Assembly: GCA_903840415.1 (NCBI GenBank)
Contig: CAIMFY010000104.1
Span: 62,001-126,000 of the forward strand
Direction: 5' to 3'
Length of the DNA stretch: 64,000 bases
From: an uncultured Opitutia bacterium
GTDB lineage: Bacteria > Verrucomicrobiota > Verrucomicrobiia > Opitutales > Opitutaceae
This document shows positions 51,427-60,235 of this stretch, piece after piece; positions within the stretch are counted from its first letter, which is position 1; each line of letters begins with the position of its first letter. Below the pieces are notes generated by a model. The model worked only from the letters and a program-made list of their open reading frames with translations. It did not search any database and had not been told where the DNA came from. Made by a program: the position numbers and the translations under genes.

Positions 51427-51852
51427 TCAGCCGGATTTTTTTGTCTTGGCTTGCAGTTGGTGCCGGGCTGCGGCCGTCGCGATCGCGTAGTCGACGGCGC
51501 GTTCCAAAGAGTCGGGCTTGAGGTCGCGTTTGATGATAAAATCCGCTGCGCCGCTCTCCATCGCGGCGAGATCGGTTTCTTCGCAGGTGTCGCCGGTGAG
51601 CAGGATGACCGGAGTGGGGCAGTGCTGCGCCTTCGCCTCTCGGAGGAGCTCGAGTCCGTCACCGGCGCCAAGGCGGTAGTCAAGCAGGCAGAGCGCAAAC
51701 GCGCCGGTCAACAGGCGCTGCAGCCCGCCAGCATAGTCGGCGGCGTGTTCGAGCGCAAAGGGCTCGCCGCGAAATTTTTCCACGAGCATGCCGATGAGCT
51801 GGGCCACGAGCGGATCGTCGTCAATCAAGAGGATTTTTTTGGAAGGAGTCAC
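51427..51852 (-). CDS. Single-domain response regulator
   Basis: This 141-residue receiver protein starts at a GTG (TPSKKILLIDDDPLVAQLIG). The acidic pocket is DDD, the phospho-acceptor lies in CLLDYRLGAGDG and the Thr and Lys positions are VILLTGD and FIIKRDL. There is no output domain, so it acts by protein contact or phosphotransfer. The longer frame to 51981 lacks family character. It is convergent with fliC. It is not a clear CheY, since the spacing and sequence around the Asp differ. Confidence 0.88.
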   Translation of the reverse strand: MTPSKKILLIDDDPLVAQLIGMLVEKFRGEPFALEHAADYAGGLQRLLTGAFALCLLDYRLGAGDGLELLREAKAQHCPTPVILLTGDTCEETDLAAMESGAADFIIKRDLKPDSLERAVDYAIATAAARHQLQAKTKKSG

Positions 51853-52069
51853 GTTGGCGCTGGAGTCGGACGGCGGTGAGACCGTCGAAATTGCTTCGGC
51901 AGGGATGTAGCGCGCTGGGTAAGCTGGCGCAAGTCCGCGCTGTAAATCGCGCGACTGGAGCTGTATGAAAATCGCGTGCATCCCTTGTATGCAGCGGGAG
52001 TTGTGCAGACTAGGGTGCGGAAACTTGAATGCGCGACGCGCGTCGGCATCGTCACGGCGTTCTTTGGAT
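51853..52069. other. Intergenic stretch before the riboswitch
   Basis: These bases are the first part of a 490-bp gap without a gene. I see no open frame with family character, no repeat and no clear promoter; the promoters for the regulator (minus) and the permease (plus) must lie here. Confidence 0.5.
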
Positions 52070-52222
52070 TCGCACGCCTAAGCCTCCGCGCCTTCCTGCG
52101 CGGCGGCACGGGGGAACCAATTTCCGCGGAAAAAAGTTTTCGCGGATGGGGCGCACGGCCGCGGGTAACCGCGGCTCAGGTCACTTCCTAGGACCGAGCC
52201 CGTCAGCTAACCTCGTCGGCAT
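52070..52222 (+). ncRNA. c-di-AMP (ydaO-yuaA type) riboswitch
   Basis: The signature segments of this class appear in order: GGGGGAACCAA at 52110-52120, TGGGGCGCA at about 52147-52155, and GTCAGCTAACCTCGTCGGC at 52202-52220, which matches the highly conserved 3-prime core almost base for base. The intervening hairpins vary as expected. It stands about 120 bp upstream of a KimA (YdaO)-like potassium permease gene, the classical partner. c-di-AMP binding normally turns expression off. Ends are approximate. Downstream, GCGGCCGC/GCGGTCGC near 52240-52260 can form a further hairpin for the expression platform. Confidence 0.88.
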
Positions 52223-52342
52223 TGGGAAGGGTGGTCCAATGCGCGGCCGCTCGGGCGGTCGCGAAATGGTCGCTCCCACGCAACCGCCTCGCTGCGCGCG
52301 GCACATCATGTGCTTATGCGCTATTTTAATTGTCCGCTTCGC

Positions 52343-54301
52343 ATGTCCCTCAAAACGCTGCTTTTCGGTCGCGCCCGCTCGCTCACCGAACAAAATCTCT
52401 TTCATAAAATCTCGCTCATCGCTGTCTTCGCGTGGGTGGGGCTCGGCGCGGACGGGCTTTCCTCATCATGCTACGGCCCGGAAGAGACGTTCAAGGCGCT
52501 CGGCGGCAACGTCCACCTCTCGCTCTTCGTGGCGTTGGCCTCGGTCGTCACCATCGTCGCGATCTGCGCGAGCTATTCGCAGATCATCGCGCTCTTTCCG
52601 ACCGGCGGCGGTGGCTACCTCGTCGCCAGCAAGCTGCTCTCGCCGGCTGCGGGCGTCGTCTCCGGCAGCGCGCTCCTGATCGACTACGTGCTGACCATCA
52701 CTATTTCGGTCGCGAGCGGCGCGGACGCGCTGTTCAGTCTGCTGCCACCACACTGGCAAATCTGGAAACTCACGTTTTCCATCGTCGGCGTCATCGGTCT
52801 CACGGTGATCAATCTCCGAGGCGTGAAGGAGTCCGTGCTGCTCTGGGTGCCGATCTTTTTTCTGTTCGTGGGCACGCACGCGTTTGCGATTCTCTACGCG
52901 GTTATCTCCCACGGCAGCGGGCTCGCCGGCGTCGCCACGGCGACGGTGCATGAAGTCCACGCGGTGTCGTCGCAGTTCGGCGTCTTTGCGCTGCTCGCTT
53001 TGCTGCTCAAGGCCTACAGCATGGGCGCCGGCACCTACACCGGCATCGAAGCTGTGAGCAACGGCCTGCCGATCCTGCGTGAACCGCGCGTGCAGACCGG
53101 CCGGCGCACGATGCTCTACATGGGCGCCTCGCTGGCGATCACTGTCGCCGGGCTGCTGCTCGCCTATCTGCTCTACGCGGTCGAGCCGGCGGAGGGCAAA
53201 ACCCTCAACGCCGTCCTCTGCGAAAAAATCGTCGCCGGCTGGTCACACTCGACGGGCGCCGTGTTTCTCTTCGCGTTTCTCGGCTCAGAGGCGGTGCTGC
53301 TGCTCATCGCGGCCGAGACCGGTTTTCTCGACGGTCCGCGCGTGCTGTCGAACATGGCGCTCGATCGCTGGGTGCCCACGAGGTTCGCGAATCTCTCCGA
53401 TCGTTTCATCACGCAGAACGGCATCCTGCTGATGGGCGTCTCGGCGCTCGTGATGATGGTGGCCACGCGCGGCTCCGTCGATACGCTCGTCGTGCTCTAT
53501 TCGATCAACGTGTTCATCACGTTCACCCTCTCGCAACTCGGCATGGTCGTGCATTGGTGGCGCCAGCGCGCCACTGAACCGAAGTGGCTCCGCAAGCTGG
53601 CGATTAACGGCTTCGGCCTCGCGCTTACCACCTTCATTCTCATTTCGCTCACGGCCGTGAAATTCTTCGAGGGTGGCTGGGTGACGCTGCTCGTCACGGG
53701 CCTGCTCGTAGTCGCGGCGTTCGCCATCAAGCGCCACTACACCGGCGTGACGGAGCAACTCCGCCGACTCGATGCCATCGTCGAGGCCGCCGAAATCAAT
53801 GTCACCGCGCATACGGCTGTGCCGGTCTCCGCCGATCCCAAGGCGCGCACCGCTGTGGTCCTGGTCAACGGCTACAACGGCCTCGGGCTTCACACTTGCC
53901 TCCACGTGCCACGGATGTTCGGCGACACGTTTCGCAATTTCGTGTTCATCGCCGTCGGCCCCGTAGATGCCGGCAATTTCAAGGGCGCCGCCGACATCGA
54001 GGCGCTCCGCACGCACACCGCCGATCAGGCCGAACGCTACGCCGCTTGGGCGCGTTCGCACGGTCACGGCGCGGCGACGTTTACCGCCATCGGTCACGAT
54101 GTGATGGGCGAAGTCATGCGCCTTTCGGCGGAGGCCAAGGCGCAATTTCCGAAATCGGTGTTCTTTGCCGGACAACTGGCGTTTGCACAGGAGACGCGGG
54201 TCACTCGCCTTCTGCACAACTCAACCGCGTTCACGCTCCAGCGTCGCTTCTTCGTCGCCAATCTGCCGTTCGTCGTCTTGCCGATTCGCGTCGATAACTG
54301 A
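52343..54301 (+). CDS. KimA-like potassium importer (APC superfamily)
   Basis: This is a 652-residue protein; ATGs at 52310 and 52316 are possible earlier starts. It has about twelve transmembrane helices with GLGADGLSSSCYGPEETFKA, FPTGGGGYLVASKLL and GTYTGIEAVSNGLPIL, patterns of the KimA/YdaO group of APC permeases. The C-terminal 150 residues form a soluble domain with a USP-like strand TAVVLVNGYNG, where c-di-AMP inhibits KimA in Bacillus. The c-di-AMP riboswitch upstream strongly supports potassium transport. Generic annotation would say amino acid permease. Confidence 0.85.
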   Translation: MSLKTLLFGRARSLTEQNLFHKISLIAVFAWVGLGADGLSSSCYGPEETFKALGGNVHLSLFVALASVVTIVAICASYSQIIALFPTGGGGYLVASKLLSPAAGVVSGSALLIDYVLTITISVASGADALFSLLPPHWQIWKLTFSIVGVIGLTVINLRGVKESVLLWVPIFFLFVGTHAFAILYAVISHGSGLAGVATATVHEVHAVSSQFGVFALLALLLKAYSMGAGTYTGIEAVSNGLPILREPRVQTGRRTMLYMGASLAITVAGLLLAYLLYAVEPAEGKTLNAVLCEKIVAGWSHSTGAVFLFAFLGSEAVLLLIAAETGFLDGPRVLSNMALDRWVPTRFANLSDRFITQNGILLMGVSALVMMVATRGSVDTLVVLYSINVFITFTLSQLGMVVHWWRQRATEPKWLRKLAINGFGLALTTFILISLTAVKFFEGGWVTLLVTGLLVVAAFAIKRHYTGVTEQLRRLDAIVEAAEINVTAHTAVPVSADPKARTAVVLVNGYNGLGLHTCLHVPRMFGDTFRNFVFIAVGPVDAGNFKGAADIEALRTHTADQAERYAAWARSHGHGAATFTAIGHDVMGEVMRLSAEAKAQFPKSVFFAGQLAFAQETRVTRLLHNSTAFTLQRRFFVANLPFVVLPIRVDN

Positions 54302-54321: not shown

Positions 54322-56103
54322 TCAATGGCGGGCGCGCAGGAATATCATCGCAATAAAAAACAGCACGATTTGCACGGCGACGATGACGCCGATAATGATC
54401 CAGATCTGTCCGGGCCGGCGGGAAATCTGCGGGGCGCGCAGGTGTTGGAAGCGGTTGGCGATGACGACGGTCTCGTAGTCGTCGAGTTCGCGCTTCATCT
54501 CGGCCGCTCGCTGATAGCGGTGGTCGGGATCACGATCGAGGGCGTGGAGGATGATTTCCTCCATGACTGGCGTGAGATTGGGATTCAGCTTGCGCGGGGC
54601 GACCGGATCGCCGGTGACGCGGGCGTTCATCACGACGTAGGGGCTCTCGCCCTCGAACGGCGTGGCGCCGGTGGTCATCTCGTAGAGCATCGCGCCGAGG
54701 CTGTAGATGTCGGTGCGGTTGTCGCCGCGTTTGCCCTTTACTTGCTCCGGCGCCATATAGTCGGGCGTGCCCATGGTGGGCGAGAAACCTACGAAAGTGA
54801 GGCGCCGCGCCTGTTTCACGCCGGCGATGCCGAAATCGAACACCCGCAGACTGCCATCGCGGCAGATCATAATGTTTTGCGGTTTTAGATCGCGGTGGAC
54901 GATGCCGTTGGCGTGTAGGTATTCGAGGGCATCGCAAATGCGGCTCGCAATCTTGGCGGCCTCCGGCTCGGGCAGCGGCTTCTGGCGGGCGAGGGTCTTC
55001 ACGAGCGTTTCGCCGTCGAGAAACTCCATCACGAGGTAGGGCCGGCTCTTGGGCGTCTCGACTTTGATTACTTTGAGAATCGAGGGATGGTTGAGCTGCG
55101 TGCCAATTTCCTCTTCGCGTTTGAAACGCTCGAAACCGGCGACGTCGCTCTCGAGTGCCATGAGCGGCACTTTGATGGCGACACTCTCGTTGGTCTGGCG
55201 ATCGCGGGCCTTGAAAATCGAGGCCATATTGCTGCGCGCAACGAGGTCAGTGAGCTCGAAGCGTTGGTCGAGCAGCTGGCCGGGTGCGAGTTCGCCGAGC
55301 CCGGCGACGGGCCCAGTCTTCGATCGGGAGCCGAGAGAAGCGGATTGCACCACCTTCTCCCAGTCATGCACGGAGATAAGCTGCAAGGAAATGTTGTCGT
55401 CCGCCCCGCGTTTTTCGGCGAGGGCGAGCAGTTCCTTGCACGCATCGTAGGGGTGGTGGCGGCAAACGATCTGGCAAAGCTCCTCGTCGAGCACGAAGGC
55501 GTGCAGTCCGTCGGTGCAGTGCAGGATGAAGTCGCCGTGCTGGAGAAGTTGAGTGGCGAAGTCGGGCTGGCAAAACGGTTCGAGCCCGACGCAACGCGTG
55601 AGCCGGCTGCGCTCGGGGCTGGCCATCGCCTGGCGTTCGAGCATCAGGCCGAGCTTCACGGGCAACGTGGTGGCGCTGTGATCCTGCGTTAGTCGGTGGA
55701 TAGTCTTGTTGCGGATGTGGTACGCGCGGCTGTCGCCGACATGCGCCACGCTCACGGAATGGGCACGAAAGATCGAGGTGACGAGGGTCGTCGCCATGGA
55801 ACCCTTGCCGTCGGCTTGGCTGGTGCTGTGAACCTTGGCGCCCGCGGCAGAGAACATCCGGAGGAGCGTCGCATACGGCGCGATTTCCGGGGACTCAGTT
55901 TTGAAGAGTTGAAGGGCCTCGTCGATCGCGAGCCGGCTGGCGACTTCGCCGCGACCATAGCCGCCGACACCATCGGCCAGCAAGGCGACGCTGCCGAGTT
56001 TATCGCGTTCGAGCGGGTCCTTCGGCTCCCAAAAATCGAGGGCGTCTTCGTTGTTCTCCCGCACCGGACCGGCGGTGGTCAGCCGTGCATAGCGGAGTCG
56101 CAT
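54322..56103 (-). CDS. PP2C phosphatase / Ser-Thr protein kinase fusion
   Basis: This 593-residue protein joins two opposing activities. The N-terminal PP2C domain (1-240) has VRENNEDALDF, LLADGVGGYGRGEVAS, AHVGDSRAYHI, HCTDGLHAF and GADDNIS. The kinase domain (about 275-540) has the catalytic Lys in VAIKVPL, HRDLKPQN, FDFGIAG and YMAPEQ. The glycine-rich loop is altered (LVARSNMASIFKA). A transmembrane helix at about 565-588 (IWIIIGVIVAVQIVLFFIAM) anchors it to the membrane by its C-terminus. It is convergent with the permease gene. Targets are unknown. Confidence 0.93.
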   Translation of the reverse strand: MRLRYARLTTAGPVRENNEDALDFWEPKDPLERDKLGSVALLADGVGGYGRGEVASRLAIDEALQLFKTESPEIAPYATLLRMFSAAGAKVHSTSQADGKGSMATTLVTSIFRAHSVSVAHVGDSRAYHIRNKTIHRLTQDHSATTLPVKLGLMLERQAMASPERSRLTRCVGLEPFCQPDFATQLLQHGDFILHCTDGLHAFVLDEELCQIVCRHHPYDACKELLALAEKRGADDNISLQLISVHDWEKVVQSASLGSRSKTGPVAGLGELAPGQLLDQRFELTDLVARSNMASIFKARDRQTNESVAIKVPLMALESDVAGFERFKREEEIGTQLNHPSILKVIKVETPKSRPYLVMEFLDGETLVKTLARQKPLPEPEAAKIASRICDALEYLHANGIVHRDLKPQNIMICRDGSLRVFDFGIAGVKQARRLTFVGFSPTMGTPDYMAPEQVKGKRGDNRTDIYSLGAMLYEMTTGATPFEGESPYVVMNARVTGDPVAPRKLNPNLTPVMEEIILHALDRDPDHRYQRAAEMKRELDDYETVVIANRFQHLRAPQISRRPGQIWIIIGVIVAVQIVLFFIAMIFLRARH

Positions 56104-56182: not shown

Positions 56183-58093
56183 TCATGACAGCGCCGGTTT
56201 TTCGACGTAGACGGATTTGCCGCGGACCTTGCTGGCGCTGTTGAAATAATAAAGGCCATAGACGCCCCACACGAGCGCGACCCCAAGAGCGATAAAGGGC
56301 TCTTTCCAGCTCATGCCCGCGACGGTGAACGGCCCGATGAGATAGAAGAGCATGCACGCGAGATTGGCGAGCAACCCGAACACCGGCACGACCATGTGCT
56401 TGAAGCCACTGAAGCTGTGGTGCTCGCGGAACGCCACGATCGCGATCGCGCAGGTGGCCATGTAGAGCAGGAACGTGCCAAAGTTGCTGATGAGCGTGAC
56501 CACCACGAGGGTGTTGGGCAGCTTGGCGTAGGTCTCTGGGGAGAAGATGCCGAAGCTATACCAGATGTTGTGGTATTTTGCATCGAGCGCCGTCGGTGTC
56601 GTGCCGCCGAGATAAATCAACACCGTGATGATGCCGATGATCGCGGAGAAGATGGCGAGCGCCCAAATCGCGCGATGCGGCGAGAGCGTCTTGCCATGCA
56701 GCAGGCCGAAGTGGGAAGGGACTTCTTCGTCTCTACCCATCGCATAGGTCACCCGCGCACCGGTGCTGAGACAGGAAAGCGTCGTGCCGATCAGCGCCAG
56801 GAAAACCGTGAACGCCTGCACCAGCATGAAGGCGCGGCCGGCGGAGTAGCTGCCAAAAAGCCACGTGCCGGTGATCACCATCATGTCGCCAAGCGGTGCG
56901 CCCGAGGCGCCCGCCGCTGGGATGGTGTAGCCATTGTGCAGGAGGTAATTTGCCGCGAAGTATTCGAACAGGTAGCAAAGGCCGCCTTGAATCGCGAGCG
57001 ACAGAAGCACAGCGCGCGGAATGTCGCGCTTCGCGTTTTTCGCCTCTTCGCCCATCGCGGTGACGGACTCGAATCCGACGAGAATCAGAATCGCGATGCA
57101 GGCCTGGATGAACATGAAGTTGAATCCATGCACGCCGACGACGGACTTCGCCGTTGGGTGAAAGTTGAAGGTCGTCACACCCTTGTCATCAGTCGTATAG
57201 GCTTCCTTGATGTCGTAGCTGACGGTGAAAGGCTCGGCGAGTTTCAGGTCCGTCACGGGTTTGCCGTCTTTGTCGGCGCCCACCGGATTGCCGTCCTTAT
57301 CCTGCGAATCCTGCATCTGGTAGATGGGTTTCTTGTCCTTGTCGAAAGTCGCCTTGCCGTCGGCATCGAGCACGGGGGCCGGATTGCCCTTGTCGTCTTT
57401 CACGACCTCTTGCGCGACCTGATAGTTTACGGCGATTCCGTTCGAGAGGTGGTAACCGACGTCACCTTGCTTGTGTTGCAAGCGGTAGGAGATGGCGATG
57501 ATCGAGAAAATGATCAGCGCTGTGATCTGGATGATGTTAATCGCGAGGTTGACCGTCGTGGTCCCGGTCACGCCGCGAAAGGCGATGTAGGCGACACCAA
57601 ACGCAAACACGACGCAGAACAGAATCATGAACAGCGGGCTGTTGTAGGCGCTACTGAACGTGTCCGGAAAAAATTGATTCAACAGATAGCCGCCGAGCAG
57701 GGCCGTCACGCCCACCATGCAACCCGGATAAACCCAGTAATAGAGATGGCTCGCCCAGCCCGTGAAAAATTTCGCGATGCGGGCAAACTTGTAGGCATGG
57801 GTCTTCGAGAGGAACGCCTGTTCCGCGTAAAGATACGACGAACCCGCGCCGGGGTAGAGTTTCGACAACTCCGCGTAGCTGATCGCTGTGGCGAAGCACA
57901 GCAGCAGCGCGGCGACGATACCGATCCACATCGCACTGCCGGCCATCGGCGCGCCGTAGAGCGACTGGATTTGAAACGTGAGCCAGAGGAAGGCGCCTGG
58001 GGCGATCAGGGCCATGGCATTGCTCGTGAGACCAGTGAGGCCAAGGGTAGGCTTCGCGGATGGGCTGGAGGCGACAGGAGGTGATTGCGACAT
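56183..58093 (-). CDS. APC-family amino acid permease with Asp-rich loop
   Basis: This 636-residue protein has about twelve to thirteen transmembrane helices. The N-terminal GLTGLTSNAMALIAPGAFL and the YAELSKLYPGAGSSYLYAEQ segment are typical of APC permeases, as is GFESVTAMGEEAKNAKRDIP. Between helices there is an unusual loop of about 120 residues; at about 231-281 it holds repeated DADGK, DKDKKP, DKDGNP and DKDGKP units. It is divergent from the P-II gene, with a sigma-54-like promoter on each side of the shared gap, so it is probably induced under nitrogen limitation. Substrate is unknown; an amino acid is most likely. Confidence 0.88.
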   Translation of the reverse strand: MSQSPPVASSPSAKPTLGLTGLTSNAMALIAPGAFLWLTFQIQSLYGAPMAGSAMWIGIVAALLLCFATAISYAELSKLYPGAGSSYLYAEQAFLSKTHAYKFARIAKFFTGWASHLYYWVYPGCMVGVTALLGGYLLNQFFPDTFSSAYNSPLFMILFCVVFAFGVAYIAFRGVTGTTTVNLAINIIQITALIIFSIIAISYRLQHKQGDVGYHLSNGIAVNYQVAQEVVKDDKGNPAPVLDADGKATFDKDKKPIYQMQDSQDKDGNPVGADKDGKPVTDLKLAEPFTVSYDIKEAYTTDDKGVTTFNFHPTAKSVVGVHGFNFMFIQACIAILILVGFESVTAMGEEAKNAKRDIPRAVLLSLAIQGGLCYLFEYFAANYLLHNGYTIPAAGASGAPLGDMMVITGTWLFGSYSAGRAFMLVQAFTVFLALIGTTLSCLSTGARVTYAMGRDEEVPSHFGLLHGKTLSPHRAIWALAIFSAIIGIITVLIYLGGTTPTALDAKYHNIWYSFGIFSPETYAKLPNTLVVVTLISNFGTFLLYMATCAIAIVAFREHHSFSGFKHMVVPVFGLLANLACMLFYLIGPFTVAGMSWKEPFIALGVALVWGVYGLYYFNSASKVRGKSVYVEKPALS

Positions 58094-58301: not shown

Positions 58302-58811
<510 letters not shown>

Positions 58812-58830: not shown

Positions 58831-58868
58831 ACGCCGGCGGCGCTTCGTGCGCCGCCGGCGTTTTTTTT
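58831..58868 (+). terminator. Intrinsic terminator after the P-II gene
   Basis: A 13-bp perfect GC-rich stem (ACGCCGGCGGCGC with GCGCCGCCGGCGT) around TTCGT is followed by a run of eight or nine T. It ends the P-II transcript 20 bp after the stop codon. Confidence 0.95.
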
Positions 58869-58937
58869 GTGGCGGGCGTTCGCACCTTGCGCCCCGATGG
58901 GCGACGTTGAGCGGTGCGTCTCACGCTTTTTCACTCC

Positions 58938-60235
58938 ATGATTTCACTGCCGATCCTCGCCCAGCACGACGCCCCGCTCGGGTTGGTGGCGCCCTTTGGA
59001 TTGCTGCTGCTCCTCATCGCGACGATGCCGCTGGCGCCGGCCGCGGTGAACCATTGGTGGAAAAAAACTATCACCTTGCTTCGCTCGCCCTCGCGGCGAC
59101 GGTCGCGGCGTGGTATCTCGGGAAAGTCGCGGGCGGCGGTGGCGAACTCCTGCACACGCTCGGCGAGTATTGTTCCTTCATCGCGCTCGTCGGCTCGCTC
59201 TTTGTCGTCGCGGGTGGGATTCACCTAAGAGTAAAGGGTGAGGCGACGCCGCTTGCCAACATTGTCTTCCTCGCGATCGGGGCTGTCGTCGCGAATCTCA
59301 TCGGCACGACGGGTGCGTCCATGGTGCTGATCCGGCCGTGGATTCGGATGAACAAAATCCGGATGAGCGCCTATCATGTCGTTTTTTTCATCTTCATCGT
59401 CTCGAATGTCGGCGGCGCCCTCACGCCCATCGGCGATCCGCCGCTGTTCCTCGGTTATCTGCGCGGCGTGCCATTTTTCTGGCTGCTCGATCACGTGGTC
59501 GAGCAATGGCTTTTCACGGTGGGCGCGCTACTCGCCGTGTTTTATGCGTTCGACCGCTGGAGCTACCGGCTCATGCCGGGAAAGATCCGGAGCGAGGTCG
59601 AGACGCATCGGGAGAGCTGGCGGTTCGATGGCGGGGTCAATGTCCTCTTTCTCTTCGCGATCATCGGGGCGGTGTTTCTGCCGGAGAAATTTTTCCTGCG
59701 CGAGGCCGTGATGATTGCTGCCGCCGTGGGAAGCTGGTTCGCCACGGCGAAGGTGGTGCATGAGGAAAACCACTTCAGCTTTGGGCCCATCAAGGAGGTG
59801 GCGTGGCTGTTTCTCGGTATTTTCGTTACGATGATGCCGGCGCTCGACTACCTCGCGCTGCACGGCCGCGAGTTCGGCTTCACCCGGTCGCTGCAGTATT
59901 ACTTCGCGAGCGGCGCGCTGTCGTCGGTGTTGGACAACGCGCCGACCTACGTGAACTTCCTCCAACTCGCGCAGGCGACGGCGGCGGCGCCGGGCGCGGC
60001 GCCGGTGAGTGTGGCGAGCGTGCTCGCCTCGCATCCGCTTTTCATCATTGGCGTGAGCCTCGGCTCGGTGTTCTTCGGCGCGATGACCTACATCGGCAAC
60101 GGGCCGAATTTCATGGTGAAGGCGATCGCGCACGATGCCGGTGTGCATTGCCCGTCGTTTTTCGGCTACATTCTCAAGTTCAGCCTGCCCGTGCTCCTGC
60201 CGATTCTCGGGTTGAGCGGGTGGCTGTTTCTGTAG
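58938..60235 (+). CDS. NhaD-type Na+/H+ antiporter, apparently frameshifted
   Basis: Two frames together make one antiporter of about 432 residues. The first frame starts at ATG 58938 (MISLPILAQH, then LGLVAPFGLLLLLIATMPLA) and reads to HWWKK at the A7 run 59061-59067. The family then continues in the next frame as EKNYHLASLALAATVAAWYLG. One extra base near 59060 would restore the HWWEKNY motif. The rest is complete: GTTGASMVLIRPWI, NVGGALTPIGDPPLFLGYL, GALSSVLDNAPTYVNFLQ and TYIGNGPNFMVKAIA. Either a sequencing or assembly error in the homopolymer, a recent mutation, or slippage on A7. The second frame alone is open from 58847. Confidence 0.8.

Follow-up and report, generated by a model that had tools for sequence, protein, structure and literature searches.

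The window analysed here, a stretch of 64,000 nucleotides from the genome of an uncultured Opitutaceae bacterium, carries a c-di-AMP riboswitch aptamer in the 5′ leader of kimA, and this element probably controls the production of KimA in that bacterium. The reading builds on the aptamer, its target gene, a cyclase gene and a phosphodiesterase domain observed directly in this genome, together with the gene order of relatives and a complementarity between two leader segments (strands B and C) in part of them. We infer ligand binding, an OFF direction, the ligand-favoured state and a physiological role as follows. With ample potassium, c-di-AMP from the one cyclase detected in the genome would bind the aptamer and reduce the amount of KimA made; under potassium shortage, the c-di-AMP level would drop and KimA would be produced. 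In relatives, strand B may pair either with the 3′ tail of the aptamer (strand A) or with the ribosome-binding region (strand C).

The identity of the aptamer was established with covariance models (cmscan, Rfam 15), a check that had been named in an earlier, sequence-only reading of this DNA, which assigned the element to the ydaO class from two conserved segments. Both segments are present, and the class assignment was confirmed by a match well over the gathering score:

52065 to 52236, + strand: c-di-AMP riboswitch aptamer, RF00379 (c-di-AMP, ydaO/yuaA leader), full-model match of 63.6 bits against a cut-off of 38.
52110 to 52118, + strand: conserved aptamer segment GGGGGAACC, aligned to the consensus.
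52202 to 52220, + strand: conserved core GTCAGCTAACCTCGTCGGC, aligned to the consensus; the core of RNA 52065–52236 is also cited as GTCAGCTAACC.
52184 to 52188, + strand: CUUCC, proposed by sequence complementarity as the partner of GGAAG at 52225–52229.

We take the CUUCC/GGAAG pairing to be the putative 3′ pseudoknot of this riboswitch class. The span proposed earlier for the element, 52070–52343, takes in the aptamer plus the leader, but the model match itself stops at 52236. A chance or false match to the covariance model can be set aside with near certainty, given that it covers model positions 1–134 of 134 at 25 bits above the cut-off (E 2.1e-12 in the 64 kb window) and that the same element precedes potassium-transport genes in dozens of relatives. 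Apart from one tRNA, it is the only Rfam match in the window, and a scan of the whole genome returned no second RF00379 match at E <= 0.001. By score, it ranks fourth among the 60 matches of the family search, the best of which reaches 67.9 bits.

The 3′ end of the aptamer precedes, on the same strand, the ATG of a KimA homologue, which places it in the 5′ leader of a transport gene:

52343 to 54301, + strand: gene for a KimA-like K+/H+ symporter, with a likely ATG start at 52343 and an alternative in-frame GTG at 52310.
53837 to 54298, + strand: C-terminal cytosolic USP/PPAT-like domain, residues 499–652 (AlphaFold2 and structure comparison with VIA-align).

The earlier description of this gene as a KimA-like permease with a USP-like C-terminal domain was borne out on both counts. 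The open reading frame 52310–54301 matches the KimA structure 6s3k (phmmer E 1.8e-66) over query residues 36–499, which covers the membrane domain, and it encodes the one KimA of this genome; Pfam assigned it AA_permease_2 only, and NCBIfam returned no match for it. The K+ ligands of B. subtilis KimA, given as D36, Y43, T230, and Y377 in PMC10284832, are all four kept at the aligned residues (phmmer alignment, hand-counted), and these positions are invariant across 8 homologues. For the C-terminal domain we relied on the AlphaFold2 model from residue 491 onwards, where ten-residue blocks have pLDDT values of 52–87, mostly >65, and left out of use the poorly predicted membrane part (whole-protein mean pLDDT 45.1). 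The predicted domain matches USP proteins with Z up to 11.7 and, for residues 499–651, c-di-AMP-bound KimA 8b71 with Z 10.9 and an rmsd of 3.0 over 129 residues, a score with which USP proteins tie. PPAT structures also matched, further down the same ranking; the cytosolic domain of KimA is termed PPAT-like in PMC10284832.

It had also been proposed that c-di-AMP controls potassium uptake twice, at the RNA and at the protein level. The protein half of this proposal stands in part: the K+ ligands and the KimA/USP fold are kept, but of the c-di-AMP pocket residues compared (R337, H579, N580, Q581, and S582, hand-counted), two out of the five match those of B. subtilis KimA. The conserved pair is H579 and N580; S stands in place of Q581 and, conservatively, T in place of S582, and the position of R337 holds a T followed by an R. 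According to PMC10284832, R337 aids high-affinity binding of c-di-AMP and is not essential, and KupB, a protein without R337, is still inhibited. Control of the window KimA by c-di-AMP at the protein level is thus plausible but partly backed, as judged from the alignment and the predicted fold. Elsewhere in this neighbourhood, a gene for a fusion of a PP2C phosphatase and a serine/threonine kinase (54322–56103, − strand) faces the KimA gene, and a P-II protein gene (58302–58811) lies between an AA_permease_2 gene (56183–58093, − strand) and a CitMHS_2 transporter gene (58847–60235).

The genome itself is 4.9 Mb in size, 98% complete, and Opitutaceae-like, in agreement with the probable verrucomicrobial origin put forward from the letters alone. 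A search for a c-di-AMP cyclase had been suggested along with that reading, and one DAC-domain gene over the cut-off was found, so that a source of the ligand is encoded:

Locus L002 (G000:C74), 565 to 1905, + strand: diadenylate cyclase, a PTS_EIIA_2–DacZ_P–DAC fusion (domain search).

Its product has 447 residues, and the architecture suggests a possible input from the phosphotransferase system to c-di-AMP. In a protein search of 240 genomes of the phylum, 40 gave a match that takes in both ends of this cyclase, and 37 of these belong to the same family or order. The genome also encodes one PF07698 domain, presumably the membrane domain of a PgpH-type phosphodiesterase.

Across relatives, the element recurs mainly before genes of potassium transport. 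Searches with RF00379 gave matches in 10 of 57 relatives, 24 of 387 genomes of the phylum (23 over the cut-off), and 59 of 250 genomes of the family. These samples overlap; pooled, they amount to 78 loci from 77 genomes, and a pair of the loci (L031 and L090) score below the cut-off. The first downstream gene, named with reference proteins identified by Pfam, encodes KimA in 34 loci, an SPFH-like protein in 26, a TrkH-family protein in 8, and Kup in 5, with single cases of a Na+/H+-exchanger-family (Kef-like) protein, KdpA, a citrate synthase, and a beta-barrel porin (BBP2); at one further locus the contig ends before a first gene could be assigned. KimA, Kup, the Kef-like protein or KdpA thus come first in 41 of 78 loci, and TrkH-family proteins in 8 more. 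The citrate-synthase gene (PF00285) and the beta-barrel-porin gene (PF07642) follow the riboswitch at L013 and L021, respectively. Starting instead from KimA, a motif search of named genomes found the element in 27 of the best 80 of 570 KimA loci; Rfam confirmed all 13 motif-positive loci tested and none of three motif-negative ones, of which one has just 183 nt before KimA.

We then considered how such an aptamer may act on its target, for which the following leader segments are relevant:

52229 to 52236, + strand: strand A, GGGUGGUC, with 8 of 8 positions pairable with strand B when G-U is counted.
52268 to 52276, + strand: strand B, GGUCGCUCC, whose counterpart in part of the relatives complements the ribosome-binding region.
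52219 to 52242, + strand: alternative hairpin GCAUUGG...CCAAUGC, which shares bases with strand A and with the aptamer's 3′ edge (minimum-energy fold, weak).

In part of the relatives, strand B lies about 35 nt past strand A and is complementary to the bases immediately ahead of the start codon. Two types of this pairing were seen, type I joining GGUCUCCC or GGUCGCUCC with GGAGAC or GGAGUC, and type II joining GGUUGYC with GRCAACC, the latter including a double change from U-A to C-G between GGUUGUC/GACAACC and GGUUGCC/GGCAACC loci. Over the 20 nt before the start, the longest Watson-Crick run between B and C averages 4.52 against 3.86 for permuted partners (reached in 0 of 20,000 permutations) in 62 of the 78 loci, as measured in a motif-guided design with 16 loci left out, strands and some starts picked after viewing, and kinship partly controlled. 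Shifted windows gave mean runs of 2.8 to 3.7, and a median p of 0.001 was obtained when each of the 27 genera contributed a single locus. By locus, the run is at least 5 in 23 of the 62, is 4, as a plain anti-Shine-Dalgarno CUCC alone would give, in 24, and is at most 3 in 15; by eye, the complement is missing in several loci outside Opitutaceae. This complementarity suggests that output is probably translational in at least part of the relatives. The review PMC10907184 names ydaO among the classes whose aptamer–ligand complex can occlude the ribosome site, so translational action would not be new to the class.

Two other designs were tried and rejected. The A:B helix was dropped as a covarying pair, its complementarity being conserved without covariation (on average 7.45 of 8 pairs in 60 loci, with permuted partners slightly better at 7.51). 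When these GC-rich leaders were searched for B and C on energy grounds, without guidance, no clear signal emerged; the motif-guided design used later is the weaker of the two. We also observed the motif [G/A]GGAA[C/T]AC[C/T] 3′ of strand B in 26 of the 78 loci (e.g., L022, L010, and L018), where by eye it complements strand A.

Several riboswitch loci follow the SPFH/flotillin-like gene noted above with potassium-transport genes. Among the 26 loci with SPFH first, 8 continue into KimA and/or KdpA/B, with KimA in G001, G451, G015, and G492 and Kdp in G443, G489, G589, and G602:

L054 (G001:C98:8000-14500), L135, L095, L092, L083, L096, L103, L105, and L106: SPFH/Band_7 gene between riboswitch and KimA/Kdp.

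A reference-protein search found no K+ transporter within the approximately 1.4 to 9.6 kb available beyond SPFH at L010, L018, L027, L028, L030, L038, L043, L044, L048, L053, and L079, nor in the less than 1 kb available at L017, L050, L052, L070, L073, L077, and L088. Both SPFH-like proteins run against Pfam carry Band_7 (PF01145). When SPFH homologues were fetched regardless of any riboswitch, none of 20 loci (L115–L134) had an adjacent K+ transporter among reference proteins in flanks of about 1.5 kb, which counts against a strict SPFH–transporter link; of these, L115, L116, and L124 do have the riboswitch, and the remainder are mostly distant homologues. A literature search, with subscription journals mostly outside its coverage, returned no link of SPFH or stomatin to c-di-AMP or its riboswitch.

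One of the SPFH-first loci, that of G001, belongs to the same genus as the window and reads, in order, divergent response regulator, riboswitch, SPFH, KimA, KdpA, and KdpB; contig CAITWF010000098.1 of an uncultured Opitutae MAG shows the same gene order. The window shares the first of these genes:

51427 to 51981, − strand: divergent response-regulator gene (Pfam PF00072), marking the orthologous locus in G001.

Its product and the counterpart in G001 share 74% identity across 141 aligned columns, and the two loci are therefore taken as orthologous. A protein search of the window's genome returned no SPFH match, the same query finding homologues elsewhere.

Traces of a lost SPFH gene before KimA were looked for as well, and are not claimed. 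Of five KimA loci with a short leader ORF, L040 and L047 begin like SPFH genes; compared with 100 shuffles, the alignment of L047 scored 44 against a maximum of 42 and that of L040 scored 43 against 55. The scores of L008, L034, and L071 did not exceed the shuffle maximum. At KimA loci L001, L009, L022, L024, L033, L034, L041, L042, L051, L063, L068, L071, and L076, SPFH matches falling on the aptamer proved to be an artefact of a reference that opened with aptamer-translated codons. The SPFH search results given above stem from a reference trimmed of these codons.

In the window itself, the RNA half of the double control proposed earlier stands as far as the aptamer in the leader is concerned, but the leader has neither an intrinsic terminator (none in 51900–52500) nor a complement of the ribosome-binding region: strand B and the 20 nt preceding the start have a longest Watson-Crick run of 2, a value that ties for the lowest among the 62 loci. 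No Shine-Dalgarno sequence was seen by eye before the ATG at 52343. Compared with shuffles, the stretch 52200–52370 shows no gain in folding (z 0.20) and the leader 52062–52360 hardly any (z −1.88). An inverted repeat, GCACATcATGTGC, lies at 52301–52313, directly upstream of the KimA start. As strand C is missing, the output in the window would be another mechanism, for example a Rho-dependent one or one acting via the start region, or would be weakened.

Two alternatives bear on this step. One, which we consider possible though somewhat doubtful, is transcriptional control that dispenses with an intrinsic terminator, in which c-di-AMP, once bound, would lay open a stretch of the GC-rich leader for Rho-dependent pausing or termination. 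The window is compatible with this, and terminator-like hairpins with a T-rich stretch occur in 4 of 5 scanned KimA riboswitch loci of Omnitrophota/Nitrospirae (L156, L168, L182, L188, and L199; at L188 the script missed the terminator, and a run of T follows the hairpin by eye), pointing to termination as the output elsewhere; against it, some of the relatives show B:C complementarity, which favours translation. A simple scan found terminator-like sites in 6 of the 78 loci, and most of the five Omnitrophota/Nitrospirae loci show, by eye, an SD-like sequence. The other alternative is that the switch is a relict, its aptamer still binding c-di-AMP but its output lost when the interval between aptamer and KimA changed (SPFH and strand C being absent), so that KimA would no longer be under RNA control. 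Besides the missing strand C and terminator, this would fit G001, where SPFH persists with an SD-like CGGAGUC ahead of it, and whose leader aligns with that of the window up to about 52299 and not further. The high rank of the window aptamer argues against such decay, however, as does G022, whose KimA is 88% identical and which, by eye, also has no strand C, yet retains a 57.4-bit aptamer, as if under selection. We therefore regard a relict as unlikely and retain control of KimA production by the riboswitch as the preferred reading.

Tentatively, SPFH may join the c-di-AMP/potassium regulon as a new member, organising or tuning K+ transporters within a riboswitch–SPFH–KimA–Kdp island of Opitutaceae and related Verrucomicrobiota. 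The switch would act on translation by way of a strand covarying with the ribosome-binding region, and the window would then be a reduced version of this island without SPFH and the pairing. This proposal is testable: an unstudied SPFH gene recurs, flanked by the riboswitch on one side and genes for K+ transporters on the other.

The riboswitch class, its target gene, and the two-level control of KimA are already known, and the window element is an ordinary member of its class that carries this known way of controlling potassium uptake into an uncultured lineage of Opitutaceae. KimA of B. subtilis is reportedly controlled by c-di-AMP at the level of both expression and activity, in work by Gundlach from 2019. 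As in the window, the ydaO (kimA) riboswitch of Bacillus subtilis places an RF00379 aptamer before a KimA gene. The kdpFABC riboswitch of Bacillus thuringiensis (PMC6488665, whose introduction counts Verrucomicrobia among the predicted carriers of the c-di-AMP riboswitch) likewise stands over a potassium-uptake operon, whereas Opitutaceae can place an SPFH gene between the riboswitch and Kdp or KimA. For the ligand source, a figure legend of PMC6741144 lists proteins of Lacunisphaera, Puniceicoccaceae, Coraliomargarita, Verrucomicrobia, and Opitutae as DacD, a class to which the PTS_EIIA_2–DacZ_P–DAC cyclase of the window's genome may belong. Compared with B. subtilis KimA bound to c-di-AMP (8b70 and 8b71; PMC10284832), the window protein is alike in family, in the four K+ ligands, in the cytosolic fold, and in H579 and N580 of the pocket, and differs at Q581, S582, and R337. 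Finally, the Firmicutes cases considered here, including those of Bacillus, end in transcription termination, whereas no terminator was found in the window and the switches of part of its relatives seem to be translational.
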